Positions 22,448 through 39,815 of a stretch of DNA of 64,000 nucleotides are shown in pieces. Every line of letters starts with the position of its first letter. Within the stretch, counting starts at the first letter, position 1. A program made the translations under genes and the position numbers. The notes beneath the pieces are model-generated. The model was not told the origin of the DNA, did no database searches, and worked only from the letters and a program-made list of their open reading frames with translations. Source of the stretch: Bdellovibrio sp. NC01 (lineage in GTDB: Bacteria; Bdellovibrionota; Bdellovibrionia; Bdellovibrionales; Bdellovibrionaceae); assembly GCF_006874625.1 (NCBI RefSeq), contig NZ_CP030034.1:1240001-1304000 (forward strand), given 5' to 3'.

Positions 22448-22524
22448 GGGGTGGTAGTTAAGTTGGTTATAACGTCCGCCTGTCACGCGGAAGGCCGCGG
22501 GTTCGAGTCCCGTCCACCCCGCCA
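22448..22524 (+). tRNA. tRNA-Asp (anticodon GTC), CCA encoded
   Basis: The acceptor stem is GGGGTGG/CCACCCC with discriminator G and encoded CCA. The anticodon arm is TCCGC-CTGTCAC-GCGGA with GTC at 22482-22484. The T arm is GCGGG-TTCGAGT-CCCGT. It closely resembles E. coli tRNA-Asp. Its 3' end is the integration site of the island, and the serine recombinase frame runs antisense through it. Confidence 0.97.
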
Positions 22525-24185
22525 TTTTGTTCTTTATCCGTACTTTGGTTCTCCAAGGTGACGGAAGAGGAAGAAGATGGAACCCCACAAGATCGATTTA
22601 GGAAAAGATTGCCATCTACGGATGGCTTTTGTTTTTTTAGGCCCCTGTTTTTTTCAGGCTCTCCGTAAAGTACCAGTTCCAATTTGTTATCCTTGTAAAC
22701 TTTAATCTCTTTTATCAGTTTCTCTATGAGGTTTCGTTTTTCTGTACCCGTAAGGGTACTTAAGCGCTCACCAAATGTTCTTACCGCTTTCTTGAGGTCA
22801 TCCAAGCCCGTCTTACGCAGAATCTCGTCCCGCACTTTTCTAAAGCCGTCCAACTCAGTTCTTTTCTGAAGGCGCTCAGCATTAATTTTTTCAAGTTGCT
22901 CATCCAGCCATATTAACAAGCTTTCTTTTTTGATAGCCAAATTTACGATTTGATTTTTGAGATTGGCTTCTCCTGCAGCAAGTTCAGCAAGAGATTTCTC
23001 TATGCGTCCTATCAGGTTTTCGACTTTAGGAAGCTCGCTCTGGCGTCGTAGCAAAGCTTGCTCAACTAAGTTCAAAAAATCTTTATGACTTGTGATGTAT
23101 CCCTTTATGCGCTTTTCGATCAGTGTATGAATCTCATCACACCGAATACGTAAATTGTGCTTTCTGTTGTGATAATAGCGGTACTCACGATTTTTAGCGC
23201 ATTGACCGCTGAAATTGCTACCATCTTCAAAAATCAATATGTGCGATAGAAGGTAGATGTAATCGTTCGATCCTGAACGCTTACTTTTCTGCTTTGTATC
23301 TTCCAGCTTGGCATTCACCGCATCGAGCAACTCGAGGTCAATAAGTGGACCGTGAGGCAGAGGAACCAGCTGGAATTGTTTTGCAGGAGGAAGGATAGAC
23401 TGATCTAAATCTTTATTCTCTTCATTCGCATACCAAAGGCCTCTGTAACGCCATTTCGCATTTGCAACAACGCCTTCAATAATTCTGGCGGTAAGAGTTC
23501 TGCCCCTTGGGCCTGTGATGCCCATTGTTTTCGCGGCCTCTAAGACTTTCTTTTTGCTTGATAGTTGAACAAACAAACGAAGTATTTTTTCTGCCATTTC
23601 TAAACCCTCCGGATTCATGAGGAAATGTCCTCGTTTGTTTGGGTCGCGATCAAGTCCCAGAATTTCGGCAGCACCGTTAATCTTACCATCTTTTAAAAGA
23701 CGAGCCGCTGCGTTTTCGCGAACACGGTGTGAGGTCATTTTTCTCTCAAATTCAGCAAGTGCTACCAGAATGATCAGCAACATTCTTCCAAACACATCAG
23801 ATGTGTCGAGGTTTAGACCGATGATAATTACATCGACTTTGTGTTTCTCGCAGTGTCCGATTAAGTCTAAAAAGTCGACGACGGAGCGACTGAGGCGACT
23901 TAGTTCTGTGGTAACGATAAATGTAATTTGCTTAGTGGATACAAGATCCCACATCCTTTGATATTGCGGGCGTGCTGTGTTTTTTCCGGAATACCCTTCG
24001 TCACTAAGAAATTCTATAATCTTGAGCTTCTGCTTTGGTCCTTGGGAAAGATATTCAACGTGCCTTTCACAACGTTCTTTTTGGGCCTCTGGTGAGGCAT
24101 CGTCCTTCCTACGTCCATCTTCGTCTTCCATTTGCCCAGTAGTACTAACACGCCCGTAAGCGATACCTAACTTAGTTGTCTTCAA
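22467..24185 (-). CDS. Large serine recombinase (integrase), 3' part replaced by tRNA antisense sequence on integration
   Basis: A 572-residue site-specific recombinase. The N-terminal resolvase domain (about 1-150) has the catalytic serine in YGRVSTTGQ (S14) and ELSRLSRSVVDFLDL. A recombinase domain follows (about 175-300; LGLDRDPNKRGHFL, GVVANAKWRYRGLW), then a zinc-ribbon-like segment (SGQCAKNREYRYYH with a later C and H) and a coiled coil (about 380-470). The start is TTG with AAGGAG six bases upstream. The last 16 residues (VDGTRTRGLPRDRRTL) are the antisense of tRNA-Asp and are plainly acquired. Through the shared 12-bp repeat, the same frame continues at the other island end (39815 down to 39348), giving a predicted 711-residue protein in the circular form. 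It most likely integrates and excises this island. Confidence 0.9.
   Translation of the reverse strand: MKTTKLGIAYGRVSTTGQMEDEDGRRKDDASPEAQKERCERHVEYLSQGPKQKLKIIEFLSDEGYSGKNTARPQYQRMWDLVSTKQITFIVTTELSRLSRSVVDFLDLIGHCEKHKVDVIIIGLNLDTSDVFGRMLLIILVALAEFERKMTSHRVRENAAARLLKDGKINGAAEILGLDRDPNKRGHFLMNPEGLEMAEKILRLFVQLSSKKKVLEAAKTMGITGPRGRTLTARIIEGVVANAKWRYRGLWYANEENKDLDQSILPPAKQFQLVPLPHGPLIDLELLDAVNAKLEDTKQKSKRSGSNDYIYLLSHILIFEDGSNFSGQCAKNREYRYYHNRKHNLRIRCDEIHTLIEKRIKGYITSHKDFLNLVEQALLRRQSELPKVENLIGRIEKSLAELAAGEANLKNQIVNLAIKKESLLIWLDEQLEKINAERLQKRTELDGFRKVRDEILRKTGLDDLKKAVRTFGERLSTLTGTEKRNLIEKLIKEIKVYKDNKLELVLYGEPEKNRGLKKQKPSVDGNLFLNRSCGVPSSSSSVTLENQSTDKEQNGGVDGTRTRGLPRDRRTL
22517..22528. repeat. 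Left attachment site core (direct repeat 1)
   Basis: CCCCGCCATTTT spans the last acceptor-stem bases, the CCA end and four following T residues. An identical 12-bp copy lies at 39815-39826. Together they bound the island. Confidence 0.75.
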
Positions 24186-24534
24186 ATGAGTCTCCTTTGT
24201 AAGAATCCAGGGTCGTATTAATTGTGGTCGTCATCTCAACATAGTCGACGATGCACTTTCGCGACGAATAATTGTGAGAGATGAATTGAGTTTCAACTAC
24301 GTGGAACTCATCGATATTCAACACGGATCCAGATCTTGTAACTTGTAACGTCTTTCTTGCGATTTTAGTTTGCTGTCGGTGCCGCGTCTTTTTTGCTCGA
24401 ATGCATTCTTTACAACTACTGTCTATGCGCCCCGGACCTTTTGAGTAAAAGTCAGAACCGCTTTTAACTTGACCACATGTTGTGCAAGTCTTAGCCAGGT
24501 TTTTTAAACTTTCATTTAAAGGTGGGGCGCGCAT
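24172..24534 (-). CDS. Endonuclease VII-like zinc-finger protein
   Basis: A 120-residue protein. Residues 17-44 carry two zinc knuckle pairs (C17/C20 in TCTTCGQVK and C41/C44 in SCKECIRAK), with the spacing seen at the start of recombination endonuclease VII and similar phage HNH proteins (CxxC...FY...CKxC). The HNH nuclease part itself is not visible; the C-terminal half is unrecognised and polar. It overlaps the recombinase start by 14 bp on the same strand, so it is cotranscribed. A DNA-binding accessory role, for example in controlling recombination direction, is inference. Confidence 0.7.
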   Translation of the reverse strand: MRAPPLNESLKNLAKTCTTCGQVKSGSDFYSKGPGRIDSSCKECIRAKKTRHRQQTKIARKTLQVTRSGSVLNIDEFHVVETQFISHNYSSRKCIVDYVEMTTTINTTLDSYKGDSFEDN

Positions 24535-24551
24535 GGAAAACTCAGATGATT

Positions 24552-27218
24552 CTAAATATTTGTTTCAGAGACTATGTTGCGTCTTAGAGAAGGATGTATT
24601 AGGACCACTTCACTGACGGTTCCATTTGTATTTGATTTTAAACTTACTACTTTCGCGCATCCTGCTTTTTCAAGTAAAGCCATGCCTGAAATCACATCAC
24701 ATCTTTTCTTTAGTTGAGGCCAGTTTTTACGATAGATCTCACGGACGGTAAGGCCATTTGTGAGAGATCCCGACTCAATTTTTTCAAGTAAAATAAGAGA
24801 CTTTGCTACCTCTGGGGAGCTGCATCCAAGGTATGTCTTGCGAGCATGAGCTTCGATGATTTCACCCCAGCGTATTGCAAGAACTAAGGAGTTGTATGAA
24901 ATTGGTTCAAGCTTTTCGCAGTTAGTGGATAGCTGTTCGCAAAGGTGAAAGATTAATGCGAGGGTGCAGACAGTATTAGGATGCTTGCCTAGAAAGGCTT
25001 CAAGTGCTTCTGATTTAGATTCACGTGCTTCTTTTTCTATGTTTGAAATAAGCCAAGTTACAAATAGTGACTGTGCGTGTTGCGAAAAACCAATATATGG
25101 AAGACCGGATTTATCCATGGCCTCAATACCTTTGTTCTTTGCAGAAAAGGTCGAAAGATTTTTCATAACCGTTTGAAGATCGTTGAAGGCATCAATATTG
25201 GGTTCTCGATCAACGTATCTATAAGGAACGTCATCGGGCCAGATTAGAACAAAACGCGCCATGAGGCCGTCGGCACCGGAGCCGCCGTTGTTGGCCGCGC
25301 TAATATATTCTGCCAATGGACCCGGTTGGATCCCTCCAACGATTGATGCAACAGTTGCTTTAAGAGAAACCGCTTCTCTTGATCTTCTGCGCTCAACGTA
25401 AGGCACTTTGCCGTTGTAAAGTTCAAGATAAAGTCCGCGATCTTGCTCGCGACCTTTGATATTTAAACCTTTTAACCAGGCGGAAAGCTCGTCTCTAACA
25501 ATTAAGAGGCCATTGGGATTATCCTTCAAAACATCGACAAGCGCTTCTTTAGTTGTATCACTTACGAAGTAAACCACCTCGGCCGGTCTCCCATTGCGCA
25601 ACTGATACTCAATACGAGCAATCTGTTCTTTAATTTCGTCACGTGAATTATTAGAATTGTCTGAGTCTTCGTGCTCTTCAGTTCGTCTCCCTCTTGAGTT
25701 GAGGGACTTCAAAAGATTGTCACGTTCTTGAGATAAAATTTTTGATTCGGCAAGCCAGTCAGCATGATTTTTCTCGTTTTGATCATGGATCTCAGCACTT
25801 AGATTTTCCAGAAAAGCAATTCCGCAACCTAAAGCGGGTGACTTCTTTTTTGATGGTCTTCCGATGAGCATCGGCCAAAGAACTGGAACGATTGTCCAGG
25901 TATCTTTCAGTTTTGGACGTATTGCTAATTTACGACCGATGAGGCTGGCTGCGACAGCAAATACTGATAGTGAAATATACTCAATGGAAACGGAAATGCG
26001 TTCGGCACAGTCTTTTATGTAGTTGCGAAAAATCGCGGGTAAATCACTATCATCGATCTGTGGTAGAGGCTTAGATCCAAATTCAATTTCTTCAGGTTCG
26101 CGATCCCACTCGTCGTCGAACTTTTCAATCTGATCGCATCCCGAGAATCCTTTATTAATGAGGTCGTCTGGAAAGTTAAGATTCTTACCAATGAATCTTA
26201 AATATTCTTCAGCTTCAGGAGTACTAAGATATTCAAGTTCACACTTCCCTTGTAAAGCATCGTCCACGCCTTTGTAATCGTGATCGCTCCAGTAAAGGAA
26301 CTGGACATTGTAACCTAAATTTTTAAGCTCACCAAAAAGTCGCGCAACCGGGCGGAAGACGCCATGGTTTTTTTCAATATCACGGTCCGGAGCTAGCACT
26401 ATTCTTTCGGGTTTAAGTTCAGAGATAAGTTGTAAGGATCTGCGGCAACTGCTTATGCCTGGTAGGCCTAAAGCGGTGTGAGTGGGGAATTGCTGAGTGA
26501 ATCTAGTGGCCTTAAATTCTCCTTCAGTGACAATTAAAGTTTTATTGTCATGTAAACTTCCATACGCTACATGAATATTTGGATCAAGTTTAACCCCATT
26601 GCGCAGGCTGAACCAATAATAACGGGAGCCGCTATCGTCTACTTCATCTACGCGAAGACGAAGTGAAGAGATTTGTCCTTTCAAGTTCATAGATGGAATA
26701 AAAATTCCGGATCTTTTTAAAGTTTGAACTTTTGTTATTCCATCCACCTGCTTTTTTGTAAAGCCTGGGACATCGAACAAACCATCACCAAATTCACTGT
26801 AAAGGCGTTGAACTGTGAGATCTAAATTGCGGGCAGAACTATACTTGCTCTTCTGAATCGTTTCTTTGAAAAAACCCCTCTGAAGATGTAGATGCTCCAT
26901 ATGATCGTCGTGAAGTAGGCACAGATCCATGAAACGACGATAGATTTTGTCTCTGTGCTCGACGGCTTCATCTTCGCCTAGTGGGCGGCGCGGAACATAG
27001 CTACGAGCAGAGAAAGTCTTGCCTTCCACGTAATTGGGACCTTTGTGAACAAAGTAAGGATCGCCGTTACTGTCGATCTTTTCTCTGATGCAGCCGTCGT
27101 TCTTAAAACGACAGTTGGTAAAGGAACCATTTGAGTCTGTGCTGCACCATTTTTTTGCTCCACAGATAGGGCAAGGACTTTGGCTATTAGCTGTTTGCCA
27201 GTTTGCTGAATTTGACAT
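24552..27218 (-). CDS. DUF3987 primase/helicase-like protein with zinc finger and Toprim-like region
   Basis: An 888-residue protein typical of phage, plasmid and island replication modules. N-terminal zinc-finger-like cysteines (CPICGAKKWC, residues 16-25, with C at about 36 and 42) are followed by a Toprim-like region (TLIVTEGEFKATRF near 228-240; VLAPDRDIEKNHG). The DUF3987 part starts near residue 395. Its P-loop is GRPSKKKSPA (about 452-461), which keeps K and S but lacks the usual second glycine. A Walker-B-like IVRDELSAWLKGL follows, and later the family stretch GGIQPGPLAEYI. AGGAGA precedes the ATG. The role is probably priming or unwinding during replication of the excised element. 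Confidence 0.85.
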   Translation of the reverse strand: MSNSANWQTANSQSPCPICGAKKWCSTDSNGSFTNCRFKNDGCIREKIDSNGDPYFVHKGPNYVEGKTFSARSYVPRRPLGEDEAVEHRDKIYRRFMDLCLLHDDHMEHLHLQRGFFKETIQKSKYSSARNLDLTVQRLYSEFGDGLFDVPGFTKKQVDGITKVQTLKRSGIFIPSMNLKGQISSLRLRVDEVDDSGSRYYWFSLRNGVKLDPNIHVAYGSLHDNKTLIVTEGEFKATRFTQQFPTHTALGLPGISSCRRSLQLISELKPERIVLAPDRDIEKNHGVFRPVARLFGELKNLGYNVQFLYWSDHDYKGVDDALQGKCELEYLSTPEAEEYLRFIGKNLNFPDDLINKGFSGCDQIEKFDDEWDREPEEIEFGSKPLPQIDDSDLPAIFRNYIKDCAERISVSIEYISLSVFAVAASLIGRKLAIRPKLKDTWTIVPVLWPMLIGRPSKKKSPALGCGIAFLENLSAEIHDQNEKNHADWLAESKILSQERDNLLKSLNSRGRRTEEHEDSDNSNNSRDEIKEQIARIEYQLRNGRPAEVVYFVSDTTKEALVDVLKDNPNGLLIVRDELSAWLKGLNIKGREQDRGLYLELYNGKVPYVERRRSREAVSLKATVASIVGGIQPGPLAEYISAANNGGSGADGLMARFVLIWPDDVPYRYVDREPNIDAFNDLQTVMKNLSTFSAKNKGIEAMDKSGLPYIGFSQHAQSLFVTWLISNIEKEARESKSEALEAFLGKHPNTVCTLALIFHLCEQLSTNCEKLEPISYNSLVLAIRWGEIIEAHARKTYLGCSSPEVAKSLILLEKIESGSLTNGLTVREIYRKNWPQLKKRCDVISGMALLEKAGCAKVVSLKSNTNGTVSEVVLIHPSLRRNIVSETNI

Positions 27219-27328
27219 GGGCTCTCCTAATGAATTTTTGGAGAGACTTGCATAGAAAAGTATTAGGACAAAGTTAGCACGCAGGCTGGTTCGTTGTTAG
27301 ATTATCCAAGTATTTTTAGTGGTCGCTG

Positions 27329-28363
27329 TTAGTTGTGATCTTTGGTAGGTATGACTATTACTTTGAAATCATTATTGATTTGAAGAAGTCCTTCCTTATT
27401 TTTTCTTTCGCCTGGCTGAACTGTTTCCAGTAAATTGCCCAATTCAATTGTTGAAAGAGATTTTCTGAGGCCGGTAAGGGCCGTTCTGAGAGCACCACCC
27501 GTACTGGCAATTTTCTTCTGTACAAGCTGTGATGATGCCTGTGGTGCCCGTGCTAGCTGGAGCAGGATATCAACCTCCTGGTTTTTAAGATTAACTTCAC
27601 CATGCCCTGCTAAAGGATAAAGGCAATTTTTCTCGGTATTTAATATTATGATTTTCTGCCTTATCAAAGCATTGATGAGTGTGATTTCCTTTTTTAAACT
27701 TGAGATGTCCTCTTTTAAATAAGTGATGCCAAGCACGCCCTCAAGGTAATGCTCCAAAAAATTAAATTGATCTATTAAGCTTTCATCTGAAAAATTGAAA
27801 TTTAGAAAATCCTGTGGACTTTGAATTTTAAGTGTAAAAAATTCGACTAATGCCCAATCCCAGGCATCCTTAATTGGAGGCCATTCAATTTGACGCCACT
27901 CGGATCTTGCAATGGCGGCGTGGACTAGTTCTAAAGGCGCAAAGAACACCTCTCTCAGAAGTTGGATGCAGAAAGCATATTTGCGCTTTAAAAACTCTTC
28001 AGTGCGGTCTTTGTTTTTGAGCTCTGTGTTGATAATTGGGTAGTCTTTGAGATTTTGATGTGAGTCAGCCAACTGACAGAACTGACACCATATTTTTTCG
28101 GAGTCCTTCTTTGAAGATCCATGTCGCGAGCTTTGTGACCACTTTTTTAGGTGGCATTTGATTGCTAATGAAAGAAGAATCCAATTGAAGTCATTATTGT
28201 CTGAGGTTTTCGGTGAGTGTTTCGTAAAGTCCCGTTGTATCGTAATATAATCGCGAAATGCTAGGCGAAATGGATTGTCATTCCAACCGTCAGAATCTGT
28301 GCGGTCGAATAGCTCTACGAAAACAATTATTTGACGGTTATTTAAAACTTGCTCTGCATCCAC
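27329..28363 (-). CDS. Hypothetical island protein with a possible C-terminal winged helix
   Basis: A 344-residue soluble protein with GTG start preceded by GGAG. The first 240 residues are helical and rich in W, F and K. The last 90 (VDILLQLARAPQASSQLVQK, then GGALRTALTGLRKSL) look like a winged-helix fold. A short pair of Cys residues (WCQFCQL) lies near residue 90. No family is recognised. It is upstream of, and in the same direction as, the DUF3987 gene. It could be a replication initiator or regulator, but nothing proves it. Confidence 0.65.
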   Translation of the reverse strand: MDAEQVLNNRQIIVFVELFDRTDSDGWNDNPFRLAFRDYITIQRDFTKHSPKTSDNNDFNWILLSLAIKCHLKKWSQSSRHGSSKKDSEKIWCQFCQLADSHQNLKDYPIINTELKNKDRTEEFLKRKYAFCIQLLREVFFAPLELVHAAIARSEWRQIEWPPIKDAWDWALVEFFTLKIQSPQDFLNFNFSDESLIDQFNFLEHYLEGVLGITYLKEDISSLKKEITLINALIRQKIIILNTEKNCLYPLAGHGEVNLKNQEVDILLQLARAPQASSQLVQKKIASTGGALRTALTGLRKSLSTIELGNLLETVQPGERKNKEGLLQINNDFKVIVIPTKDHN

Positions 28364-28529
28364 ATCCAGACTCCGTTTGCTGGTTTGTAGGCTATCCTGT
28401 CAGTTCTGTCAGCTGTCGAAAGTACAGGAGCTAGTGAGATGAAAGAGAACAGGTATGCACATGGAGATTGTCGCGGCGGGTTACGTTATTTGCGCAACTG
28501 ATCTTCCCATTTCTGTGACCCAAAGAAAT

Positions 28530-29906
28530 TTAACTATAAATTTTTACGTTATGACCTAGCGCCTTTAAAGCCTTGCTAGTGCGCCCGTTACGGGGGGGAT
28601 ATCTATCCGGCATAGCCCAACCAATAATCTCACCCATGCAGCTCAATCCAAATTGAGGTATATGCCACTCGTCAGTAAAGGTGGCTTGCCATAAACGTTC
28701 ACAAATATCGTCGGGGCTACCCTTGTAAAGAACGAAGCGAATGACGTCTACGACGTTGGAGTGATTGCCCGATTTTTGTGTCCAAATCCACTTTGAGACC
28801 ACCTCTAGTCTTTTGGGTTGATTAAAGCTGGTGTTACTTTCGAGCCCCAATGTTTGGTTCTTGGTTTGGCGGGACGAGTGCCAGAATGCGAAAATACTTT
28901 GGCAGATCTTGAGGAACTCAGCTTCATTGATGTTTAGTAAGCCTCGTTCTGTCAGAATGTCCTTCAAGTAGGGAGCCTTTTCATAAATAGCTTTGTCTTC
29001 ATCCTCAACTGGTTTTCCTAGCTCACGCCACCAAGACATGGCATCTTCCAAAGCGGCCTGAGGACGAGTTCTATTTTTCTCATAAAATTCTTCATGCTTT
29101 GAACTGTTGCCTGTTTTAATAAAACTGTAAAAGTATGCATGCAAAAATTGATCGACCTGCACGCCTTTGGGGACGTCTTTAGAGATCCATTTAGGGCGGT
29201 ATTTATCTGATGAAACTTGTTCGGAAATTTGTCTAAGTATTTCAAGAGTATCATTCCATTCCGCCAAAAACTTGAGACGCTTTTTCTCGTTGGCGCTTTT
29301 CTTTGACACGACCGTAAGACCCTCAAACTTTGGTGATATAAAACTTCCAATCTTGTTCTCAAATGCCTTTTCTAAGTCTTTCTGTTGGATGCTTAAGTCA
29401 GAATATTTATTGTAAAAGGTATCTTCGACATCCTTTATCTTATTAAATAACTCGCGTGTTAGAGGAGCGGATCGTTCATCAATTCCCTCGAAGAGATCGT
29501 TTAGTTCTGAAATTAGCCCTTCAGTTTCAAGTTGTTCTTGAGAAATAAAAACGCCACATTCAATATTTTTATACCAGGCACGCTCTGTGAGATTCGCGGA
29601 CCCAATGTAAACGCCATATTCTCCAAACCATATGATCTTTGGATGGTAAAACTCCCACACCAATTTGCATTTGAAACCAGGCCCGGAATTAAGGAACTTT
29701 TCCAGAACGCTTGTCCCTACGGAAAGACCACAGTCCATACGCCCCCAAAACTCTAACGGAATGGAATTGATGCGACAAAATTCAAGTAGCTCGGGTGTGC
29801 CACTCGCGTAGGCCACAGCTGCTTTAATCCACTCAACTTGGCCTCGTGAAGAATCTAGAATCTCTCTCAAATAGCTTCCGTTCAATCCATTGGCAATTAG
29901 CTTCAT
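28530..29906 (-). CDS. PLD-like nuclease-fold protein with a single HxK motif
   Basis: A 458-residue protein. Residues about 1-140 form a phospholipase D-like domain: WIKAAVAYASG, then the active-site type motif EFYHPKIIWFGEYGVYIGSA with NLTERAW directly after. Canonical PLD enzymes have HxKxxxxD; here the Asp position is not kept, but GSANLT is. Only one motif is present, so an active enzyme would need to dimerise, as for BfiI-like nucleases. Residues 140-458 are unrecognised, helical and W-rich (WISKDVPKG, WTQKSGNHSNVVDVIRFVLY). AAAGAGGA precedes the ATG. Stand-alone PLD-like genes in islands are often restriction or defence genes; that role here is inference. Confidence 0.75.
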   Translation of the reverse strand: MKLIANGLNGSYLREILDSSRGQVEWIKAAVAYASGTPELLEFCRINSIPLEFWGRMDCGLSVGTSVLEKFLNSGPGFKCKLVWEFYHPKIIWFGEYGVYIGSANLTERAWYKNIECGVFISQEQLETEGLISELNDLFEGIDERSAPLTRELFNKIKDVEDTFYNKYSDLSIQQKDLEKAFENKIGSFISPKFEGLTVVSKKSANEKKRLKFLAEWNDTLEILRQISEQVSSDKYRPKWISKDVPKGVQVDQFLHAYFYSFIKTGNSSKHEEFYEKNRTRPQAALEDAMSWWRELGKPVEDEDKAIYEKAPYLKDILTERGLLNINEAEFLKICQSIFAFWHSSRQTKNQTLGLESNTSFNQPKRLEVVSKWIWTQKSGNHSNVVDVIRFVLYKGSPDDICERLWQATFTDEWHIPQFGLSCMGEIIGWAMPDRYPPRNGRTSKALKALGHNVKIYS

Positions 29907-30150
29907 TTTCCCATCCTCTTTGTGAGATGCATGAGTATTTCTTATGCTTTTTAGATTGCCTCATCACAATGTAAACAAGAAGAAATTTCATAAGACTTTC
30001 GTCTTTGGTCGATATGACAAATTGAAGCCCTAGACGTTCTCCAAAATCTCAAAATCCATAATACAGGTTATAAGAAAATGAAGACGCATAAACCTAATAA
30101 TATGGTGAAGATCACCGAAGAAAGGCATCGTGACATTCAAAGAATTGCCC

Positions 30151-30342
30151 ATGAATCAAAAGCTACTTTTTACTGCGCATACGCTTGTTGCATTCGCAGG
30201 TTTGCTAGCAGCATACGCAAATATTCTTGCCCTAACTGAAAAAGGTGTGTTGCCTGCGGAAATTACAAGTACGAAAAACAACAATATTAATTCTAACTCT
30301 GTGTCATCTCAACAGAGAAGCCGCAGTGGATTTTTTGAATGA
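30151..30342 (+). CDS. Possible small membrane protein
   Basis: A 63-residue frame with one membrane helix (FTAHTLVAFAGLLAAYANILAL) and a polar N/S/Q-rich tail. It ends 7 bp before the next start, as expected for coupled genes. The ribosome-binding site is weak, and an in-frame GTG at 30130 is an alternative. Low confidence. Confidence 0.35.
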   Translation: MNQKLLFTAHTLVAFAGLLAAYANILALTEKGVLPAEITSTKNNNINSNSVSSQQRSRSGFFE

Positions 30343-30349
30343 GGAGCAT

Positions 30350-30727: not shown

Positions 30728-30808
30728 TTAAGCTGTGAAAAAAGCATGCAACATATCAACCCATAAGTTGCACGAGTCTTATTTCAGATCGAAAGGAAGT
30801 TATTTCTA

Positions 30809-31759: not shown

Positions 31760-31775
31760 TCTTTATATCGCAAGC

Positions 31776-31955
31776 TCAAGGCACCGCAGCTGCGGCAATT
31801 ACTTGTGTTCCGATCGCCCATACAGTTTCTGATACAGACAAAGCGCATGTTTTAGTTTCCATGTGGTCTCCTTGTTTCTCGGCTGGTGTTGATAATTTCA
31901 AAGCTATCATTTTCACTACGAACATTAGGACAAGAGCGACCAAAAGCACTTTCAT
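31776..31955 (-). CDS. Candidate small exported peptide with an internal start
   Basis: A 59-codon frame. It begins with a hydrophobic leader (KVLLVALVLMFVVKMIAL), followed by STPAEKQGD and a 28-residue part METKTCALSVSETVWAIG plus a short alanine-rich end. The internal ATG (31862) has an ideal AAGGAG six bases upstream, while the outer ATG has only a weak site. So either a 59-residue membrane peptide, a 28-residue peptide, or both are made. The rest of the gene-free stretch 31760-32165 shows nothing else I can support. Confidence 0.4.
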   Translation of the reverse strand: MKVLLVALVLMFVVKMIALKLSTPAEKQGDHMETKTCALSVSETVWAIGTQVIAAAAVP

Positions 31956-32165
31956 TCCACAGCTGAAGCCCCAGGCAGTCAGCCCCTTCAGCTTGCGAAC
32001 CTAAACGATATCATAGTTATGATTTTCGCAATAGTCCGTTCAGAGAGAATCTCATTGTTAGACAATTACTCGTTAGTAGAATCATCCCTTTATCCGGGTA
32101 TAAGTCCTATGAGTAGAAGACAATGTCGTCTTCTATGAAATCGCCTAGATGGCGAAGGAGTATCT

Positions 32166-32390
32166 ATGGACACCATCAACGAAAAGAAACAAAACAAAGT
32201 CTTGCGAAAACGCGAAATTGACTGGGTTGAGGCCGGAATGCAAGTCGCAATTTTGATCGGCACGGGAGCGGCCATGGCCCTCGGTGGATCGCTTGCGAAC
32301 GCTTGTGTGAACAAAGTGACATCGGGCTTAAAGCCTTCCCGGCCTCTGCCTGATAATGTTGTCGAGTTAAAAAAGACAGTTAACGGATAA
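32166..32390 (+). CDS. Small hypothetical membrane-associated protein
   Basis: A 74-residue protein with a basic N-terminus (EKKQNKVLRKREIDWVEAG) and a central hydrophobic, glycine-rich helix (AILIGTGAAMALGGSLA). AAGGAG lies six bases before the ATG. No family is recognised. Confidence 0.6.
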   Translation: MDTINEKKQNKVLRKREIDWVEAGMQVAILIGTGAAMALGGSLANACVNKVTSGLKPSRPLPDNVVELKKTVNG

Positions 32391-32434
32391 TGCTATTTAT
32401 AGCCAAGGATGGCGGCTTTGTTCAGCGGGTAGGA

Positions 32435-32520
32435 CAGGACTCAAAAGGCTCTATAAAAGCCAGGTCTATTGCGCTTGCCAGGGAGTCCTGTGCGACTAAT
32501 GAGACAACTGTGCGATTAAT
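32435..32520. promoter_or_regulatory. Operator-like repeats upstream of the XRE regulator
   Basis: CTGTGCGACTAAT (32488-32500) and CTGTGCGATTAAT (32508-32520) are direct repeats 20 bp apart, about two helical turns. An 8-bp inverted repeat CAGGACTC (32435-32442) / GAGTCCTG (32483-32490) overlaps the first copy. They lie 48-133 bp before the XRE gene. Confidence 0.55.
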
Positions 32521-32567
32521 CGTTTCGACATACCCAAAAATCTAAACAAATCCGAAAATAAACTCGC

Positions 32568-32891
32568 ATGAAAAAACTTAAACTTCACGAGACTATTCCA
32601 GCATTGCTTAAAAAACGTGGAATGACTTTACGTGCGTTAGCTAAAGCATCTAAAGTTCCGCCGTCCAATATTTCAGGATGGGCAGTTCCTGGCGCTAAGC
32701 CTAAAGACATTTTGCAAGTTGCTGCTGTGGCAGAAGCTCTCGAGGTCAGTTTGAACTTTCTTTTGTTTGGAAAACCGGAGAAAAAAATTGACCTTGATGA
32801 ACTTCCTTCTGAGGTCGTTGTGAGTGGTGTGTACAGACTTCGTCTAGAACGCATCATTCAGCACAAAAACCAAGACGAAGATGAGGACTAA
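32568..32891 (+). CDS. XRE-family transcriptional regulator
   Basis: A 107-residue protein with a helix-turn-helix over residues about 7-65 (LLKKRGMTLRALAKASKVPP, then SNISGWAVPGAKP and AVAEALEVSLNFLLFG), followed by a short charged tail (HKNQDEDED). It resembles Cro/CI-type repressors of mobile elements. The direct repeats upstream are its likely autoregulatory operator. It may control island cargo or excision. Confidence 0.88.
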   Translation: MKKLKLHETIPALLKKRGMTLRALAKASKVPPSNISGWAVPGAKPKDILQVAAVAEALEVSLNFLLFGKPEKKIDLDELPSEVVVSGVYRLRLERIIQHKNQDEDED

Positions 32892-32972
32892 CTTTAGAGT
32901 CAAGGATGGTATTTTCCCTTTTGATGTCCGAATCTAAATAATTTTCTTTTTAAATATTTATATGGAGGATTT

Positions 32973-34187
32973 ATGTTCAAGTCTATTCTGGTTACGACCA
33001 TTCTATTTGGAGCTTCATTTTCTCAGGCCCGAGTTGACCCTGCAGCGTGCTCTAAGCCTGGAGTTCGTAACATTCCCTCTGTGAAGAAAGAGTGTGAAGA
33101 GCTAGATCGTCAAAAAAATGGGAGCTTTAAACTCCCATGTCAGGAAACTAATAACATTGATAAGTGCTGCTTTAATAATACAAGTGCTTGTAAAGAAGCC
33201 GGAGAGCGTTTTTTAAATCAGGGTTCTCCAAAGGACGCCATAAAGTACTTAAAACCGGTTTGTGATTCTGCTATTACAACTTCAGACGATTGTGATCTTT
33301 TGGCTACGGCTTATTTCAACTCCGGCGAAGTAGATAAGGCGATCAATTATTCAAAAGAATCGTGTGAAAGCTACGGCCATCCCCTGGCATGTAAAGTTTT
33401 AGGATTCACCTACATTAATAAGGGCAAATATCGCGAAGCTGAAGTAATCATGGAGAATATGTGCAATACACACAGTCAAAAAGAATTTTGTATCGGTAAG
33501 GCTTATGCACAGTATGAACAAGGTAACATTGGAGAGGCTCTTAAAGGATTTAATGAATTTTGTGGAGCTGACCAGAGAGAAGCATGCGCAAAACGTGCCG
33601 ATGCAAGTAAGCTGATTAAAGAGTTTTGTTTGCCAGATGACTTTGAGTCTTCAACGAATGACAAAGGGATCTCTGAGTGGAAGTGTGATCTTGGCGAAAA
33701 TAAAGCGAAAGCCATAGAGTGGTATTCTCTGGATAAAAAATATGCTGAAGGTATGTATCAGGGTTTGGAAAAGTCCGGTATTTGGAAATACTACGATCAG
33801 AGCGGTAAAGTCACAGAAGAGAGCCAACAAGAAAGAGCGAAAAAAGTGGCTGGCGAAAAGAAGTTGAACCAACAAAAAGAGCAAAAGGCGCAAGCAGCTG
33901 CAGATGCAATTCGTAAGGAGCAGCAATCTGAATTGATTTGCAAGTGCCAGCAGTATGAGGCTTCTCTGAATGAAATGGTCGGCAAAGAAAAAGAAGTTGG
34001 GGCTACGGTCGGCGTAGTGAACAAGCAAAAACTTCACAAGCTTGGCACTCAACTTGTTGTGGTGAGAGACTTCATTAAGTATCTTAGAGCGCAGCCTGAA
34101 TCAGCTAAGCAATGCTCAAAAAAGTATTCACTCCAGGTTCAATCCGAGTGTGGAATTGAGGCGGGAGCATTTACGCTAAAAAAATAG
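32973..34187 (+). CDS. Secreted cysteine-rich TPR-type protein with a MORN-like motif
   Basis: A 404-residue protein with signal peptide (ILVTTILFGASFSQA). Residues about 65-215 hold tandem TPR/Sel1-like helices with regular cysteine pairs (DAIKYLKPVCDSA; DKAINYSKESCESYGHPLAC; REAEVIMENMCNTH; GEALKGFNEFCGADQREAC). This indicates disulfides in the periplasm or outside. A short MORN-like strand (GMYQGLEKSGIWKYYDQSGK) follows near 258, then a Q/K/E coiled coil and a C-terminal four-cysteine part. GGAGG precedes the ATG. It is island cargo of unknown function. Confidence 0.75.
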   Translation: MFKSILVTTILFGASFSQARVDPAACSKPGVRNIPSVKKECEELDRQKNGSFKLPCQETNNIDKCCFNNTSACKEAGERFLNQGSPKDAIKYLKPVCDSAITTSDDCDLLATAYFNSGEVDKAINYSKESCESYGHPLACKVLGFTYINKGKYREAEVIMENMCNTHSQKEFCIGKAYAQYEQGNIGEALKGFNEFCGADQREACAKRADASKLIKEFCLPDDFESSTNDKGISEWKCDLGENKAKAIEWYSLDKKYAEGMYQGLEKSGIWKYYDQSGKVTEESQQERAKKVAGEKKLNQQKEQKAQAAADAIRKEQQSELICKCQQYEASLNEMVGKEKEVGATVGVVNKQKLHKLGTQLVVVRDFIKYLRAQPESAKQCSKKYSLQVQSECGIEAGAFTLKK

Positions 34188-34326
34188 AGTATTAAGAGTT
34201 GTATTGCAAACTGGCTTTATTTTATAAGGCCGTCCGAAGTAGATGAAGATCGAAAAGAGCTTCTCTAAAATGTAAACGTTAGCTCCGTAGCTCATATTCA
34301 TTTGACCCAAATGATAGGAGGCAAGC

Positions 34327-34719
34327 ATGACTAGCGAAAAAGATATTTACCATAATATTAAACGTCAGGTAGTTGTTTTAAATTTGATAAAAGAGCGGAT
34401 GCTTTTTCTGGCTTATAAGATCACTTCTGAAAAGGGGGCAATCGCTGACCTCATCGGTATTATCGATTGTTTTAAAGAAGAATTTCTTCTAAGTCATCCC
34501 ACTCACAAACTGGATGGCGATGATGTCAATGCCTACGCCCTCATGACATTTGAAGATATAAATAGTCATCTACCTGAGTATTTAAAAAAAACAAAAGCCT
34601 CGCTGGGAGTGTTGAAACGACTTCTCTTCTGTATTCCGTTGTGGCGGGCTGAAACAAGAATGAAAAAAGTCGCCTTACTCGCTCAAGCAGTTTTAGACAG
34701 GCACAAAGAAATTAATTAA
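34327..34719 (+). CDS. Hypothetical helical island protein
   Basis: A 130-residue protein, mostly helical, with no signal peptide (NIKRQVVVLNLIKERMLFLA; LKRLLFCIPLWRAETRMKKV). ATAGGAGG lies before the ATG. No family is recognised. It is probably the first gene of the group that leads to the PIN and SIR2-like genes. Confidence 0.6.
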   Translation: MTSEKDIYHNIKRQVVVLNLIKERMLFLAYKITSEKGAIADLIGIIDCFKEEFLLSHPTHKLDGDDVNAYALMTFEDINSHLPEYLKKTKASLGVLKRLLFCIPLWRAETRMKKVALLAQAVLDRHKEIN

Positions 34720-34874
34720 TAAAAACTCATGCTTACATTTATATGGGGTGCGTCTATCTCCAGGGGTATGATGCGCCAGGCCGTGCGCTCGGTATTTCAC
34801 TGCCTTGACGTATTTCATTTCGTGCCCAAATTAATTATTTGAGGAATATCTTCAATTTTTACAGGGGGAATATA

Positions 34875-35081
34875 ATGTCTAACAAAACACATGCGCAGAA
34901 ACTTGAGCAACTGATGGAAGAGGTTCACGATCTTTCGATTAAATTGCGTGAAAAGCAGATGATTGCAAGAGGGCTAGAAGACCAAGCCGGGGCAGCTAAT
35001 GACACTGATGTTGCCCGAAAAGCACTAGAGGTTCACAGTGCTTTGGGGCAGGCCTTTAACATCGTCGACTCAATTAAGTAA
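34875..35081 (+). CDS. Small helical protein directly upstream of the PIN gene
   Basis: 68 residues, highly helical and coiled-coil-like (KLEQLMEEVHDLSIKLREKQ). The start at 34875 is chosen because GGGGGA lies just upstream; the longer frame adds an unlikely segment. It ends 7 bp before the PIN-domain gene, so the two are coupled. The arrangement recalls an antitoxin-toxin pair, but the protein shows no known antitoxin fold. Confidence 0.6.
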   Translation: MSNKTHAQKLEQLMEEVHDLSIKLREKQMIARGLEDQAGAANDTDVARKALEVHSALGQAFNIVDSIK

Positions 35082-35088
35082 ATCAGCT

Positions 35089-36012
35089 ATGGCAAAAAAA
35101 GATCATCTGCTCTCCATAGGTGAGCGACTTGAGATTGATATTGATGCTTTTGGCGAAAAGCTGGTGAAGCATATTTCGATGTGTAAAATTCGATACCGTG
35201 GAAGTCTTAGTTCCCACGGTATCGCCGTCATTGCTCCAGAATATTGTTGGGAAAGAAATGATCCAGACGACCAATTGATTGAGATGGGTTTGCTCAAAAC
35301 ATTTAAGTCTTGGTGGGAGATTTACGCACTTTTGTTTGCTGATGCTGGTGACTCGTTAACTAGAGAACTTGAGGCACTCCGTAAATCTTGGGAGACATGG
35401 ATTCAAAGAACGCATTGGTTTGATATTCCAACGACTGCTGAAGAAGCACGCGAAAATCTTAGTATTACGTTTGACACCACCAAGCGTTTATTGAAGGCCT
35501 TAAGAAAAACAGGCACTTCTTTGGTCGTGTTGATTATCGATACTAACTCGCTCCTTATTTGTCCTGACGTTCAGGCATATCGTCAGTGTGTTGAGGAAAC
35601 CAAATTCGCTGTGGTTATTCCGTCAACAGTGTTAGGTGAGTTGGACGAGTTGAAAGTCTTCGGAAAAAGCCCAGCGGTTCAGAATAGGGCTCGCAAGGCT
35701 ATATCGAGGCTTAAGGGGTATCGAACTCAAGGCAGCCTAGTCGAAGGCGTGACGATAGATAAAACAATTAGTTTAAAAACTCTTTCGGCAGAACCTGACT
35801 TTAGTAAAACTCTTCAAGTTCTAGATAGAGCCAATAAAGATGATAGAATTATTGCTATGACGTTACAGGTTCAACGAGAAAACCCGTCACAGGTGGTGGT
35901 TGTGGTAACGAGCGATATAAACCTGCAGACCAAATGCGCGGCCATTAAGATCCCTTTTGTGGAACCACCGGAAAACATAGATGCTATGGTAGAAGTTGAG
36001 CATATTTGCTAA
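35089..36012 (+). CDS. PIN-domain ribonuclease-like protein with an N-terminal extension
   Basis: 307 residues from the chosen ATG (MAKKDHLLS). The PIN domain is C-terminal (about 145-300): LIIDTNSLL (D151), VLGELDELK, DDRIIAM and VTSDINLQTKCAAI. These supply the four acidic metal ligands of a PIN nuclease. The N-terminal 140 residues are not recognised (GDSLTRELEALRKSWETW). VapC toxins are only about 130 residues, so this is a larger stand-alone PIN protein. It is probably an RNase acting in stress or anti-phage response; inference from context with SIR2-like and DUF4238 genes. Confidence 0.82.
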   Translation: MAKKDHLLSIGERLEIDIDAFGEKLVKHISMCKIRYRGSLSSHGIAVIAPEYCWERNDPDDQLIEMGLLKTFKSWWEIYALLFADAGDSLTRELEALRKSWETWIQRTHWFDIPTTAEEARENLSITFDTTKRLLKALRKTGTSLVVLIIDTNSLLICPDVQAYRQCVEETKFAVVIPSTVLGELDELKVFGKSPAVQNRARKAISRLKGYRTQGSLVEGVTIDKTISLKTLSAEPDFSKTLQVLDRANKDDRIIAMTLQVQRENPSQVVVVVTSDINLQTKCAAIKIPFVEPPENIDAMVEVEHIC

Positions 36013-36073
36013 GCATTAGTAATGTGTTCGATTGCTGTTCAAATAACGGAAATATCTTATTTGAGGTTTAACG

Positions 36074-37111
36074 ATGAGCTTGACGAAAAAGCAGCATTAC
36101 GTCCCTAAGTTCTATCTTTCTAATTTTGGCAATCACGAAAGCATTAACGTCTTTGATAAAAAAGACTCTCGAAGATTTGGTGCGAGTGTTGATGATGTCG
36201 CCCAGGAACGCTATTTTTATGCGATTCCAACAGAGGGCTTATATACAAAAGAACAGCTCACTGCTATCGAAGATTACCTCGCGGGCATCGACGGCAAATC
36301 TGGTAGTGCGATATCATCTCTCCTCCGAAATATTGAAGCCTCTAAAATAATTTCCGTCGATGGTTTCCCGCGCTACGTTCTCAATGAAGATGAAAAAGTG
36401 GATCTTGCTATTTTTATGATCTTTCAGGAAATTCGCACGAGAGAATTTAGAGAGAAGCTTGCACAGATGGATTATCAGATTTCAAGATCTGTTTTGGATT
36501 GGGTCATTGAGGCTAATGGGCACACTGAAAATGTTGGTAAATATGACATTGAGCTTACTCCTGAACGCGAGGCTCACAACCAAATAGAAATGCTAACAAA
36601 TCGAGATTTTTTAGCGAAGCTACTCGCGCATGCTTTAGACAAGCATTGGATGATTGGCTACAGCGTCGGAAATCGACCTCTTATTACTTCCGATCACCCA
36701 ATTACTATGCGTGGACACAACCCGCACCCTCTTCAGAAAGGGATTGCAGCATGGGGAGCGCCTTTTACGGAAATCACAGTTCCCTTGAGTCCAAAGGTCG
36801 CCCTGTTGCTAATGTGTCATAGCCTTTTTGATAGCACTCCTGGGGGTAATGCGAGCAAAAGATGGACGCAAAATCAGGTTATCCCTTTGAATGATGAAAA
36901 TATTCGCTATTGCAATCATCTTCAGGTGACAAGGTCTAACCAGTATCTATTTTCAAATACAGAGGACTTTCATGAAGTGGAAGATATTTTAAGAAAAGAT
37001 CCTGAGGCGGGAAATCCAAATAGAAGGAGGGCTGAGATTTCCGGGCGCACATTTTCATTGCCGCAGCACTGGGCAAATAGGCCTCGAAAATTTGTTAAAG
37101 AAAGAGCCTAG
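36074..37111 (+). CDS. DUF4238 family protein
   Basis: A 345-residue protein that starts with the hallmark of DUF4238 (KKQHYVPKFYLSNFG) and continues with the family pattern VDDVAQERYFYA, IFQEIRTREFR and RPLITSDHPI. The biochemical role of DUF4238 proteins is not established. They often appear in accessory regions. GAGG precedes the ATG. The gene lies 61 bp after the PIN gene and 49 bp before the SIR2-like gene. Confidence 0.85.
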   Translation: MSLTKKQHYVPKFYLSNFGNHESINVFDKKDSRRFGASVDDVAQERYFYAIPTEGLYTKEQLTAIEDYLAGIDGKSGSAISSLLRNIEASKIISVDGFPRYVLNEDEKVDLAIFMIFQEIRTREFREKLAQMDYQISRSVLDWVIEANGHTENVGKYDIELTPEREAHNQIEMLTNRDFLAKLLAHALDKHWMIGYSVGNRPLITSDHPITMRGHNPHPLQKGIAAWGAPFTEITVPLSPKVALLLMCHSLFDSTPGGNASKRWTQNQVIPLNDENIRYCNHLQVTRSNQYLFSNTEDFHEVEDILRKDPEAGNPNRRRAEISGRTFSLPQHWANRPRKFVKERA

Positions 37112-37160
37112 TGATACAGAGCTTTTAAGGAAAAGGTAGGAGTTTTTTTGTGAGGGCATT

Positions 37161-38156
37161 ATGGCAGTTACTACGTTAATTTTAGGGGCTGGTGCGAGTC
37201 TTCCTTATGGCTATCCTAGCGGTGAAAAACTGGTTCAAGATATTATTAAGCGTCTCGAAGAAACTGATGATGTGACCGGCACATTGGAGCGACTTAAAAA
37301 AGTTCGCCCATACTCCATAGATGAGTTTATTAATAATAATCCAGATTTGCGAAGACATCTTCTTTGTATAGTTACAGAAGTAATTACCAAGTATGAGGAT
37401 ATAAACAGTCTTTATTCAGTTGAAGCAAAAGATGATATCTATCGGAAAATATTTAACTCAATCCCTCTAGAGAAATTTAAAGACTATCGAATTATAACCT
37501 TCAATTATGACAGAAGTTTAGAATTTGCTCTTCAAGAGCACCTTGTGAAGAGAATGTATCGCCAGCCTTCTCACCTAATTAAGGCCAAATATGATGAGCT
37601 TAAGGTAATTCATATTCACGGCAGAATGCCACCGCTTGGATTTGAAACAGATGCCTCAAGTGATTTGCTTTTTGGTTATGGTAAAGTAGTGGAAAGGTTA
37701 AATGATTTTGGCACTCAAACAGACTGGCCGACACCCCTTGCCTGGAAACGCGCTCAATCTAAAGTTTTAGCAGAGGTCTGGCGCTGGTCCGAATCGCTTA
37801 ATGTAGTCTATGATGTTGGAAGCCTCAATGTTGAGGCAAAAAAAATATTGGAAGAGTCCACAAGAATATTTTTTTTAGGATTTGGCTATCACCCCTTGAA
37901 CATGCTTAAGCTCGGTTATGACTTCAGGAAGGTGTGCTCTACCAAAGTCATCGCGGGAACGACATATGGAATGCCTCGAACAAAATTGAGAGAGTTAAAG
38001 CGGCTGTCTCCCGGAGTTCAGCATCTTTACGACTGTAAAATTGTTGATTTTCTTAGCGAAGAGTTTGATTTGTCTGAACCAATGAACGATAGCGTTCATC
38101 CCGCTGGTATTCCTTCAATCGCTTTTGCTCATGATGTTGAGCCAGCGGAATCTTAG
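37161..38156 (+). CDS. SIR2-like domain protein, probable NADase
   Basis: A 331-residue protein with SIR2-like motifs: LILGAGASLPYGYPSG (residues 6-21, nucleotide-binding glycine motif), ITFNYDRSLE (about 112-121, with the conserved N and D) and VIHIHGRMPP (about 149-158, catalytic-type histidine). A later IFFLGFGYHPLNM motif matches the end of this fold. SIR2-like proteins of defence systems degrade NAD+ to stop phage growth. No other known defence gene such as Argonaute or ThsB is adjacent. It is the last gene of the cluster and converges on the 338-residue gene. Confidence 0.82.
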   Translation: MAVTTLILGAGASLPYGYPSGEKLVQDIIKRLEETDDVTGTLERLKKVRPYSIDEFINNNPDLRRHLLCIVTEVITKYEDINSLYSVEAKDDIYRKIFNSIPLEKFKDYRIITFNYDRSLEFALQEHLVKRMYRQPSHLIKAKYDELKVIHIHGRMPPLGFETDASSDLLFGYGKVVERLNDFGTQTDWPTPLAWKRAQSKVLAEVWRWSESLNVVYDVGSLNVEAKKILEESTRIFFLGFGYHPLNMLKLGYDFRKVCSTKVIAGTTYGMPRTKLRELKRLSPGVQHLYDCKIVDFLSEEFDLSEPMNDSVHPAGIPSIAFAHDVEPAES

Positions 38157-38179
38157 TCGCTATGGTAAGCCGTCCACTT

Positions 38180-39196
38180 TTACTGCTGAAACCACCCATA
38201 AGGCACTTTTCTCTTTAAAGCTGCCTGCTTATATGGAGATCTAATATTGATTTTGCTAGAACTTTGTTCGGAACGAATTTCCGCTGTAAGTGGAATATAT
38301 TTGTCAGAAAAGTATTGTACCTCGAACCCATCTTTATCTGAGCTGTAGACGGCAATAAGAAATAGAACCTCTTGATTGCCAAGGAGTTCTGGAATCTTAA
38401 CTATTTTTTTGGTTCCGTCATCAAATGGCGAGCTGATTAAATACTGCTCTGGTTGACCTTTGTCTTCAAAGGATTGTTTTATGGTTTTCCAATCATGCGA
38501 AATAGGATGTTTTATATCGCTGTAGAATCCTAGTACACTTGAACTCTCAAATTCAATTGAAGTGTCGTATAAAGCTTCTGATGATTTGTTTTTTACTTTA
38601 AAAAATAGAAAGCCAACTTGATTTGATAAGTCACTTTCCGGTTGTCTTGACCACTTAGATCTCACTTCTTCGGGATAGTTTACATCTCCAGACTCGTCCA
38701 TATAATTTTCATCAATCCATCTCATGACGTTGATATCGTCAGGAGGTTTTGCCAAAAAATCTAGTCTGATACCTTCTTCATGATTGAACGAATATAGGTC
38801 CCAAAGTGGATCTCTAGCCACGAGTAACGGTGCGGAGCGCTTCACTTTTAAATTATGAAAAAATGAAAAAATTGGTTTCTTGAGCAGTACGAATTTATCT
38901 TCCCCGCTTGCGAAGTGAAGATTGGCATAGGGCCATTCGTCATCCGACAATCTCTTTTCTTCAACAGAGTATTCTTCAGCCAGGACCCTCATAATAAGGG
39001 GAACTGTCGCCCCTCCGAACAAACGCCAGTACTCAAAGGATAGTGGGATGCCGTCATTTTTTTGTGACTCGTGAACCTTTTCATAAATTTTTTTGGCTAT
39101 TCCCCAGGTTACCGTGCCGATAGAACCAACAGCTAATAGTAAAATACCAATTTGAAAGTCTTTTTCCACCACAAGAGAACGGAGGTAATTCCACAT
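38180..39196 (-). CDS. Hypothetical protein with one N-terminal membrane helix
   Basis: A 338-residue protein with one membrane helix near residues 15-32 (IGILLLAVGSIGTVTWGIA). The remaining part is soluble and beta-rich, with an Ig-like segment late (GFLFFKVKNKSSEALYDTSI). No family is recognised. AAGGA precedes the ATG. It lies between the SIR2-like gene (convergent, 23 bp apart) and the recombinase tail fragment (same strand). In the circular form it would lie directly downstream of the full-length recombinase gene. Confidence 0.7.
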   Translation of the reverse strand: MWNYLRSLVVEKDFQIGILLLAVGSIGTVTWGIAKKIYEKVHESQKNDGIPLSFEYWRLFGGATVPLIMRVLAEEYSVEEKRLSDDEWPYANLHFASGEDKFVLLKKPIFSFFHNLKVKRSAPLLVARDPLWDLYSFNHEEGIRLDFLAKPPDDINVMRWIDENYMDESGDVNYPEEVRSKWSRQPESDLSNQVGFLFFKVKNKSSEALYDTSIEFESSSVLGFYSDIKHPISHDWKTIKQSFEDKGQPEQYLISSPFDDGTKKIVKIPELLGNQEVLFLIAVYSSDKDGFEVQYFSDKYIPLTAEIRSEQSSSKINIRSPYKQAALKRKVPYGWFQQ

Positions 39197-39347
39197 AAAG
39201 ATCGAGTCCTTTAGCTAATACGTGATTAAGGCGCTAGATCCTTATAAATGAGGGGGATAGATCGTCAATTAAGTGCTAGGCCGGATCAGAGCGTCAAAGC
39301 CTTATGGTCTTTTGAGCGCTCTGCCCACCGATGAGATTGATCGAATC

Positions 39348-39815
39348 TTAACTTCTGCCTTCAGAGGCACTCATATCAATAATCCTTTTAATCATTTGTG
39401 GATGCCAGGAAGCAGCGCCATTCTTAGTAGAAACCTTGAGGTTAGTCAGTATTTTAGCTATCTGCCTAAGGCTTAACCCTTGAGCTTTAAGCTGATTTAT
39501 CGTGGCAATGACGTCCAGTTCTCTTTTGTTTTTCTGAAGCTTTCCGGCAGACAGCCTTGTTCCAAATTTTGCTTGAGAAGGATGACCGTGGTGCTGTGAT
39601 GGCTCGCGAATAGGTATCTTGAACTGTTTTAACGCCTTGCGCACCGCCTCTTTGGAGGAAGAAATTTCTTCTGAAATTTGAGCGATAGAGTACCCTTCGA
39701 GGGTATATCTACGATGGAGGAACTCATGATTCCTGAACAACGGAGTATGTATAAATTCAATAGAATCAATAAGTTCTAAAGGAGGAATGATTGGTACGGA
39801 GTATAGAGCAGAAGC
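39348..39815 (-). pseudogene. C-terminal part of the serine recombinase, separated by integration
   Basis: An open frame of 155 residues plus stop that enters from the right attachment repeat and has no usable start of its own (no ATG; first in-frame TTG at 39740 lacks a ribosome-binding site). It reads ASALYSVPIIPPLELIDSIE, then two DNA-binding-type segments: GYSIAQISEEISSSKEAVRK (HTH) and GLSLRQIAKILTNLKVSTKN with SWHPQMIKRIID, a pattern common in recombinase domains. Through the shared repeat its frame is continuous with the recombinase at 22517-24185 (both read NGG across the core). It is inferred to be the 3' exon-like remainder of that gene, intact only in the excised circle. Confidence 0.7.

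Follow-up and report, generated by a model that had tools for sequence, protein, structure and literature searches.

The 64-kb stretch of Bdellovibrio sp. NC01 DNA analysed here (the window) carries a 17.3-kb genomic island at a tRNA-Asp gene, and the integrase gene of this island, which encodes a large serine recombinase (LSR), is present in two pieces, one at each end. A preliminary description of the window had proposed that the recombinase gene contains its own attachment site (attP) and is split by integration into the tRNA gene. The split is confirmed at the coordinates given there and is not a one-off; it is shared by a family of mobile islands in predatory-type bacteria. The island and its ends are composed as follows.

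22448..22524, plus strand: tRNA-Asp (GTC), the integration target, intact (ARAGORN; identical to the uninterrupted tRNA-Asp loci of same-genus genomes)
22517..22528, unstranded: left attachment core CCCCGCCATTTT (tRNA 3' end plus TTTT), with exact 12-bp identity to 39815-39826
22467..24185, minus strand: truncated LSR, 572 amino acids (Pfam Resolvase, PHROG integrase)
39348..39826, minus strand: detached C-terminal recombinase tail, 155 residues from core to stop, with a predicted helix-turn-helix (HTH) and a second recombinase-type DNA-binding domain
39815..39826, unstranded: right attachment core; its reading phase agrees with that of the core at 22517-22528
39848..39877, plus strand: rho-independent terminator of tRNA-Asp, moved to the far side of the island (terminator scan)
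22517..39826, unstranded: whole island, 17.3 kb from core to core; its joined flanks restore the order tRNA-Asp, CCATTTTTTCC, terminator

Read on the minus strand, the core is AAAATGGCGGGG; its two copies are identical over exactly 12 bp, and the identity ends on both sides. In nine same-genus genomes the terminator directly follows an uninterrupted tRNA-Asp, providing natural empty sites. The computed joint of the window flanks aligns with these sites across the tRNA, CCATTTTTTCC and the terminator, and beyond the far core, the first 53 bases on its right are matched at 83-93% in same-genus genomes. Because the joined flanks match the empty sites, the island was evidently inserted between tRNA-Asp and its terminator, which was thereby pushed to the far side. 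With an intact tRNA at one end, a 3' fragment at the other and an empty site in relatives, the element is a tRNA-integrated genomic island.

The recombinase frame (24185 to 22467) lies directly downstream of, and antisense to, tRNA-Asp. It begins with TTG after a good Shine-Dalgarno sequence, AAAGGAG (start region AAAGGAGACTCATTTG), and comprises 552 residues, the core codons and then 16 residues from antisense tRNA-Asp. The left core is read as N-G-G, and Q-N-G-G spans the tRNA 3' end, exactly as had been described for 22517-22528. At the opposite end, the tail frame is open from 39826 to 39348, can be entered only via the core and lacks an ATG over the 50 codons that follow it; the earlier reading of it as a start-less frame of 155 residues, passing through the identical core in the same phase, holds. 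Excision-like joining of the island ends yields a single frame of 711 amino acids plus stop. The element thereby shows both features that characterise a self-splitting integrase as a mechanism, an attP inside the frame and parts at opposite ends that join in frame.

A canonical serine recombinase with an added tail

The truncated recombinase of the window matches Pfam Resolvase (2.7e-29) and the PHROGs 'integrase' profile over residues 2-503 (1.8e-66). Its match to PF07508 is weak (8.7e-4, below the cut-off); the same domain is strong in a relative (9.1e-10), which also shows a weak Zn_ribbon_recom match. The resolvase catalytic domain, together with a recombinase domain and a zinc-ribbon/coiled-coil region, places the protein among the LSRs, and the catalytic residues R12, S14, R72, R97 and R100 are invariant in an alignment of 20 sequences. 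TP901-1 and similar known LSRs align to residues 20-523 of a full-length member, that is, without the tail, which indicates that integration strips off an added pair of DNA-binding domains and leaves the canonical LSR layout in place. The full-length protein of ~711 amino acids would be made up of a canonical LSR (residues 1 to ~505) followed by a linker and, at the C terminus, the additional DNA-binding tail. Between the end of the LSR profile and the tRNA core, no stop occurs in ~2,311 codons from 29 islands (naive P ~6.5e-49).

The HTH and recombinase-domain motifs that had been noticed in the tail proved genuine: the tail matches PF07508 (3.7e-06) and the YokA profile (4.9e-07), and the HTH match is real. 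A structure was modelled with AlphaFold2 on an alignment of 17 tails (mean predicted local distance difference test score, pLDDT, 81). Modelled residues 79-157 match the recombinase (DNA-binding) domain of LSRs, with the SPbeta integrase at Z 9.5 (78 residues, root-mean-square deviation 2.7), Bxb1 at Z 8.4 and the Listeria integrase at Z 6.1, and the top seven structure matches are all LSRs. Residues ~32-66 are modelled as a helix-turn-helix with middling structure matches only; for the N-terminal HTH region (residues 24-73), matches at Z ~5 named no specific family. The tail is thus predicted to combine a helix-turn-helix with a second LSR-type DNA-binding domain.

Recurrence of the split in the order and the phylum

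Genomes of the order were searched with the tail and with the recombinase, and then a 25-row tail profile was applied, built on an alignment too diverse for pattern scans. Within the order, 74 of 141 genomes contain tails; for the phylum the figure is 184 of 369. Almost all of these tails are separate frames ~150-250 amino acids long. The phage collection, the plasmid collection and the viral contigs contained no tail relatives; on the viral contigs, all that the tail profile and full-length queries retrieved were ordinary LSRs (L203, L204), through a cross-match between the profile and the recombinase domain of these proteins.

Fifty recombinase/tail pairs lie on one contig within 100 kb. In 45 of them both parts are on the same strand with the tail 5' of the recombinase, the order expected if a circle was opened inside one gene. 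The other five are also on the same strand with the tail 3', mostly in tandem islands or fused frames, and no pair lies on opposite strands. Wherever a tRNA or tmRNA was identified (31 pairs), the recombinase frame runs antisense through its 3' end (31/31). These targets are of 10 kinds (Asn 6, Pro 6, Asp 3, Arg 3, Met 3, Ala 3, Gln 3, tmRNA 2, Glu 1 and Val 1), so the same split does occur at other tRNA-flanked islands, which the preliminary description had named as support. A relative of the window recombinase with 42% identity (G001:C1) shows the same structure at tRNA-Asp. The contrary outcome named there, that related recombinases would end naturally near residue 556-572 away from a tRNA, was not borne out, since the relatives run antisense into tRNA genes.

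The reading phase is maintained across the two parts. By script, the stretch of the tail region that best matched the tRNA 3' end was in frame and phase for 27 of 31 pairs; in the remaining four the script had picked a longer off-site repeat rather than the in-frame core, and inspection by eye found these in phase as well (NWRS/SWRG in G006, NGR/IGR in G074, NGRP/IGRP in G075:C10 and NGCG/FGCG in G003:C5). Mispaired recombinases and tails, used as a control with a run of 6 or more, were in phase in 118 of 393 combinations. The phase also co-varies between islands at the same tRNA-Asp, being N-G-G in the window and W-R in G067:C8 and DISW01000013.1 (L184), with the tail matching in each. In G051:C3, where tandem islands have one core sequence in common, the phase in which it is read differs between islands, and every recombinase there fits its own tail and no other.

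Tails and recombinases have diverged together, with a Mantel r of 0.70 between their distances (largest of 9,999 permutations, 0.28). For related tails, most values of the ratio of nonsynonymous to synonymous substitution rates (dN/dS) fall at 0.1-0.3, and the one pair that stands out, L012/L013, has 0.74 at low divergence; by this measure the tails are under purifying selection. A start codon of any kind with a Shine-Dalgarno sequence occurs within the first 50 codons in 3 of 29 tails, and 16 of the 29 have no ATG there, contrary to what would be expected if tail homologues were always separate genes with their own starts.

These data bear on two simpler accounts. The first takes the tail to be a small gene in its own right, such as one for a directionality factor or a regulator, that happens to lie at the far end of the island with a coincidental frame match. 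The survival of tails in arrays and mini-islands without a recombinase would fit such a gene; nevertheless, the scarcity of starts, the phase agreement in 31 of 31 pairs after inspection, the fused frames and the correlated divergence all speak against it, and we reject it as highly improbable. According to the second, a full-length integrase gene was broken by later rearrangement or nested insertions in the course of ordinary decay. Some islands are indeed decayed (G010, G005), but the breakpoint always falls at the tRNA 3'-end core, the phase is kept in dozens of islands with intact frames and the tails are under purifying selection, which leaves this account with practically no credibility.

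Full-length proteins, which the preliminary description had named as support, exist as unsplit single frames of 767 (G309:C42), 793 (G309:C277) and 784 amino acids (G063:C46). Genome G309 holds both an unsplit copy (C42) and a split tail (C44); the two are identical at 30 of 30 positions to the right of the core and at no more than 11 of 30 per 30-bp block to its left, where C44 carries a terminator. In a comparison of sequences, their shared core corresponds to the 3' end of the tRNA-His that lies beneath a related recombinase frame in G305, and the two copies have the appearance expected of an attP and an attR from a single type of element.

A further recombinase clade, represented by L135 (G018), L143 (G026) and L148 (G014), has frames that run antisense into tRNA-Ser (91 bp).

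Integration, excision and relation to known systems

Given the anatomy, target, phase, recurrence, purifying selection and unsplit copies, we consider it very likely that attP lies inside the recombinase's own gene and that integration splits this gene, with a lock as the favoured, less certain consequence of the truncation. In the circular form, the integrase gene would be whole and would encode a full-length enzyme of ~711 amino acids. Its attP lies in the linker region of the gene and mimics the 3' end of tRNA-Asp (CCA and acceptor stem) read antisense. Recombination between attP and attB, which is located where the tRNA 3' end meets the terminator, would restore the tRNA and cut the gene, leaving at the left end a recombinase whose tail is swapped for 16 residues of antisense tRNA and at the right end the tail as a start-less frame. 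Strand exchange would take place within the core that both sites share, probably at the TGG that every target contains.

Because integration removes the HTH and the second recombinase-type domain, the two forms of the enzyme would be expected to prefer different sites. Truncation need not inactivate the enzyme, as its catalytic part stays with the canonical LSR domains. By analogy with the archaeal suicidal integrases, we place first the possibility that integration is the work of the full-length form and that truncation makes the integrated state more stable, so that excision would depend on full-length enzyme supplied by a different copy, by a tandem junction or by a helper; our analysis gives this division of labour somewhat better than an even chance. 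For the archaeal suicidal tyrosine integrases, the full-length copy has been compared to a directionality factor, a part that it could play when supplied by a second element (PMC8371274).

The main rival, which we regard as a serious though clearly less probable possibility, makes the truncated form the excision enzyme: the full-length protein would carry out attP x attB recombination and the short form attL x attR recombination, the truncation taking the place of a directionality factor. Such a switch is plausible because the catalytic core is unbroken, unlike that of the archaeal enzymes. In every island examined, the canonical LSR domains lie in the part upstream of attP, and the catalytic residues are invariant in the alignment; TP901-1 and other known LSRs align only to residues 20-523 of a full-length member, without its tail; and the elements are clearly mobile though nearly all copies are integrated and split. 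On the other side, known LSRs require a directionality factor for excision, and the tRNA-encoded tag varies with the target, so that no common excision domain is gained. A more far-reaching proposal, which we find rather doubtful, is that self-truncation is a directionality switch (the 711-residue protein integrating, the tRNA-tagged 572-residue protein being stable or excision-competent) and that relatives reduced to the tail and att site constitute arrays of trans-mobilised cassettes downstream of tRNA genes, which would be a new kind of cassette system without relation to integrons.

Several points weigh against a self-splitting gene whose truncation acts as a lock. The whole-gene form is known from assembled unsplit or tandem copies, not from an excised circle; the 784-residue frame is a tandem-island junction at which one island's recombinase is in frame with the other's tail, the 767- and 793-residue frames sit on short contigs (6 kb and 9.5 kb), and many of the searched genomes are draft assemblies. 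The tRNA-Ser recombinase of G018 enters the tRNA in the same manner, and no convincing tail or core was found within 40 kb upstream of it, suggesting that the split rule may not hold in that clade. Tails also persist without a recombinase (L216, L217, L267, L269), so the tail may have a further role.

Self-splitting, or suicidal, integrases have been described as exclusively archaeal tyrosine enzymes and have been treated as an archaeal peculiarity that arose once within the tyrosine recombinases. The parallel drawn earlier with the SSV-type integrases stands with regard to self-splitting at a tRNA gene: in SSV1/SSV2, pTN3 and pT26-2, attP likewise lies in the integrase gene, which is split at a tRNA gene so that its two parts bound the element. 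It does not extend to what is separated. The SSV-type enzymes are archaeal tyrosine recombinases whose catalytic domain is cut off, whereas the window enzyme is a bacterial serine recombinase whose catalytic part stays together with the canonical LSR domains and loses only the extra tail. The split protein contains no tyrosine catalytic domain (Phage_integr_3), and the detached part is DNA-binding rather than catalytic. The enzyme works like a suicidal integrase and is not a member of that family.

With phiC31, Bxb1, TP901-1, SPbeta YokA and the Listeria LI integrase, the window family shares the Resolvase catalytic domain, the recombinase domain and the coiled-coil region. In those enzymes, however, attP lies beside the gene, whereas here it lies within it, accompanied by an extra HTH and second recombinase-type domain and by a target at tRNA or tmRNA 3' ends. 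As of 2014, LSRs were 'not known to specify' tRNA/tmRNA gene targets (PMC4383910). The ssrA islands of Dehalococcoides carry a Ccr-like serine recombinase of 540 amino acids, DsiB, with a companion, DsiA (PMC3146451); they resemble the present islands in having a serine recombinase beside attL at the end of a tmRNA gene and in forming tandem islands at one site, and differ in that no split gene or tail is described (PMC3146451). The tRNA islands of tyrosine integrases (Islander set) similarly restore the tRNA and leave a displaced 3' fragment that marks the far end, but their integrases belong to another enzyme family and the gene is normally whole, beside attP. No earlier serine or bacterial self-splitting integrase was found in the open-licence literature, so a prior description is possible.

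The presence of this logic in a second, unrelated enzyme family, found widely across a bacterial phylum, implies that self-splitting has evolved at least twice and calls for a general explanation. The islands form a large natural set for testing by what route an element leaves again after cutting its own integrase. They add tRNA and tmRNA 3' ends to the targets of LSRs, a class used for biotechnological DNA insertion, and a removable tail of this kind may set the direction of the reaction.

Island cargo and tail-only arrays

Three further genes of the window island were annotated as cargo, one of them a possible defence gene.

24552..27218, minus strand: DUF3987/DUF3854 primase-helicase-like protein, cargo (Pfam 2.4e-62 and 1.2e-08)
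30809..31759, plus strand: tyrosine recombinase inside the island, cargo (Pfam Phage_integrase 1.9e-23)
37161..38156, plus strand: SIR2/AbiH-like protein, possible defence gene (Pfam AbiH 0.0019, below the cut-off; PADLOC SIR2 1e-07)

The presence of a Phage_integrase protein raises the question of whether the tyrosine recombinase at 30809-31759 integrated the island, with the serine recombinase as a passenger overlapping the core by chance. Tyrosine integrases usually target tRNA genes (PMC4383910), which would favour this origin. However, ten other islands of the same structure contain no homologue of the tyrosine recombinase, and in G061:C21, an island of 8 kb, Pfam detects no site-specific recombinase other than the LSR. 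The feature common to the islands is the split LSR and not the tyrosine recombinase, and we reject the passenger explanation as very unlikely.

Other cargo of the window suggests defence functions. A DUF4238 protein followed by the SIR2/AbiH-like protein (36074-38156) may form a two-gene defence module, and a PLD-domain protein at 28530-29906, which matches PHROG 28026 (function unknown) over its whole length (4.4e-140) and is weakly DrmC-like, is a possible defence gene. The 8-kb split-integrase island of G061:C21 (L064:2698-7763) carries defence-type cargo, comprising DarT/macro-domain, TOTE-type primase, helicase and Mrr-like genes.

Tails are also found in arrangements of other kinds. Behind a tRNA-Pro in G248:C1 (L216:1193-15649), four successive units of 2.4-5.2 kb have a common left end of ~100 bp, contain no recombinase and each end with a tail frame of 154-181 amino acids that proceeds from L/I-N-G-R at the tRNA-Pro core. 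This array resembles a set of tail-only cassettes; dN/dS among its tails is 0.28-0.48. Several tandem tails lie upstream of one full recombinase in L217 (G187:C14; recombinase at 593029, tails at 632739, 641620 and 646123), L228 (G177:C14; recombinase at 896112, tails at 938132 and 946249) and L226 (G214:C66), as if satellites had accreted at an autonomous island. Finally, mini-islands of ~4 kb without a recombinase occur in two one-contig genomes (L267 in G005, L269 in G010), where a tail faces a tmRNA or tRNA-Arg end; in L269, an in-phase remnant, KKIGDSGTTRT, lies beside tRNA-Arg.

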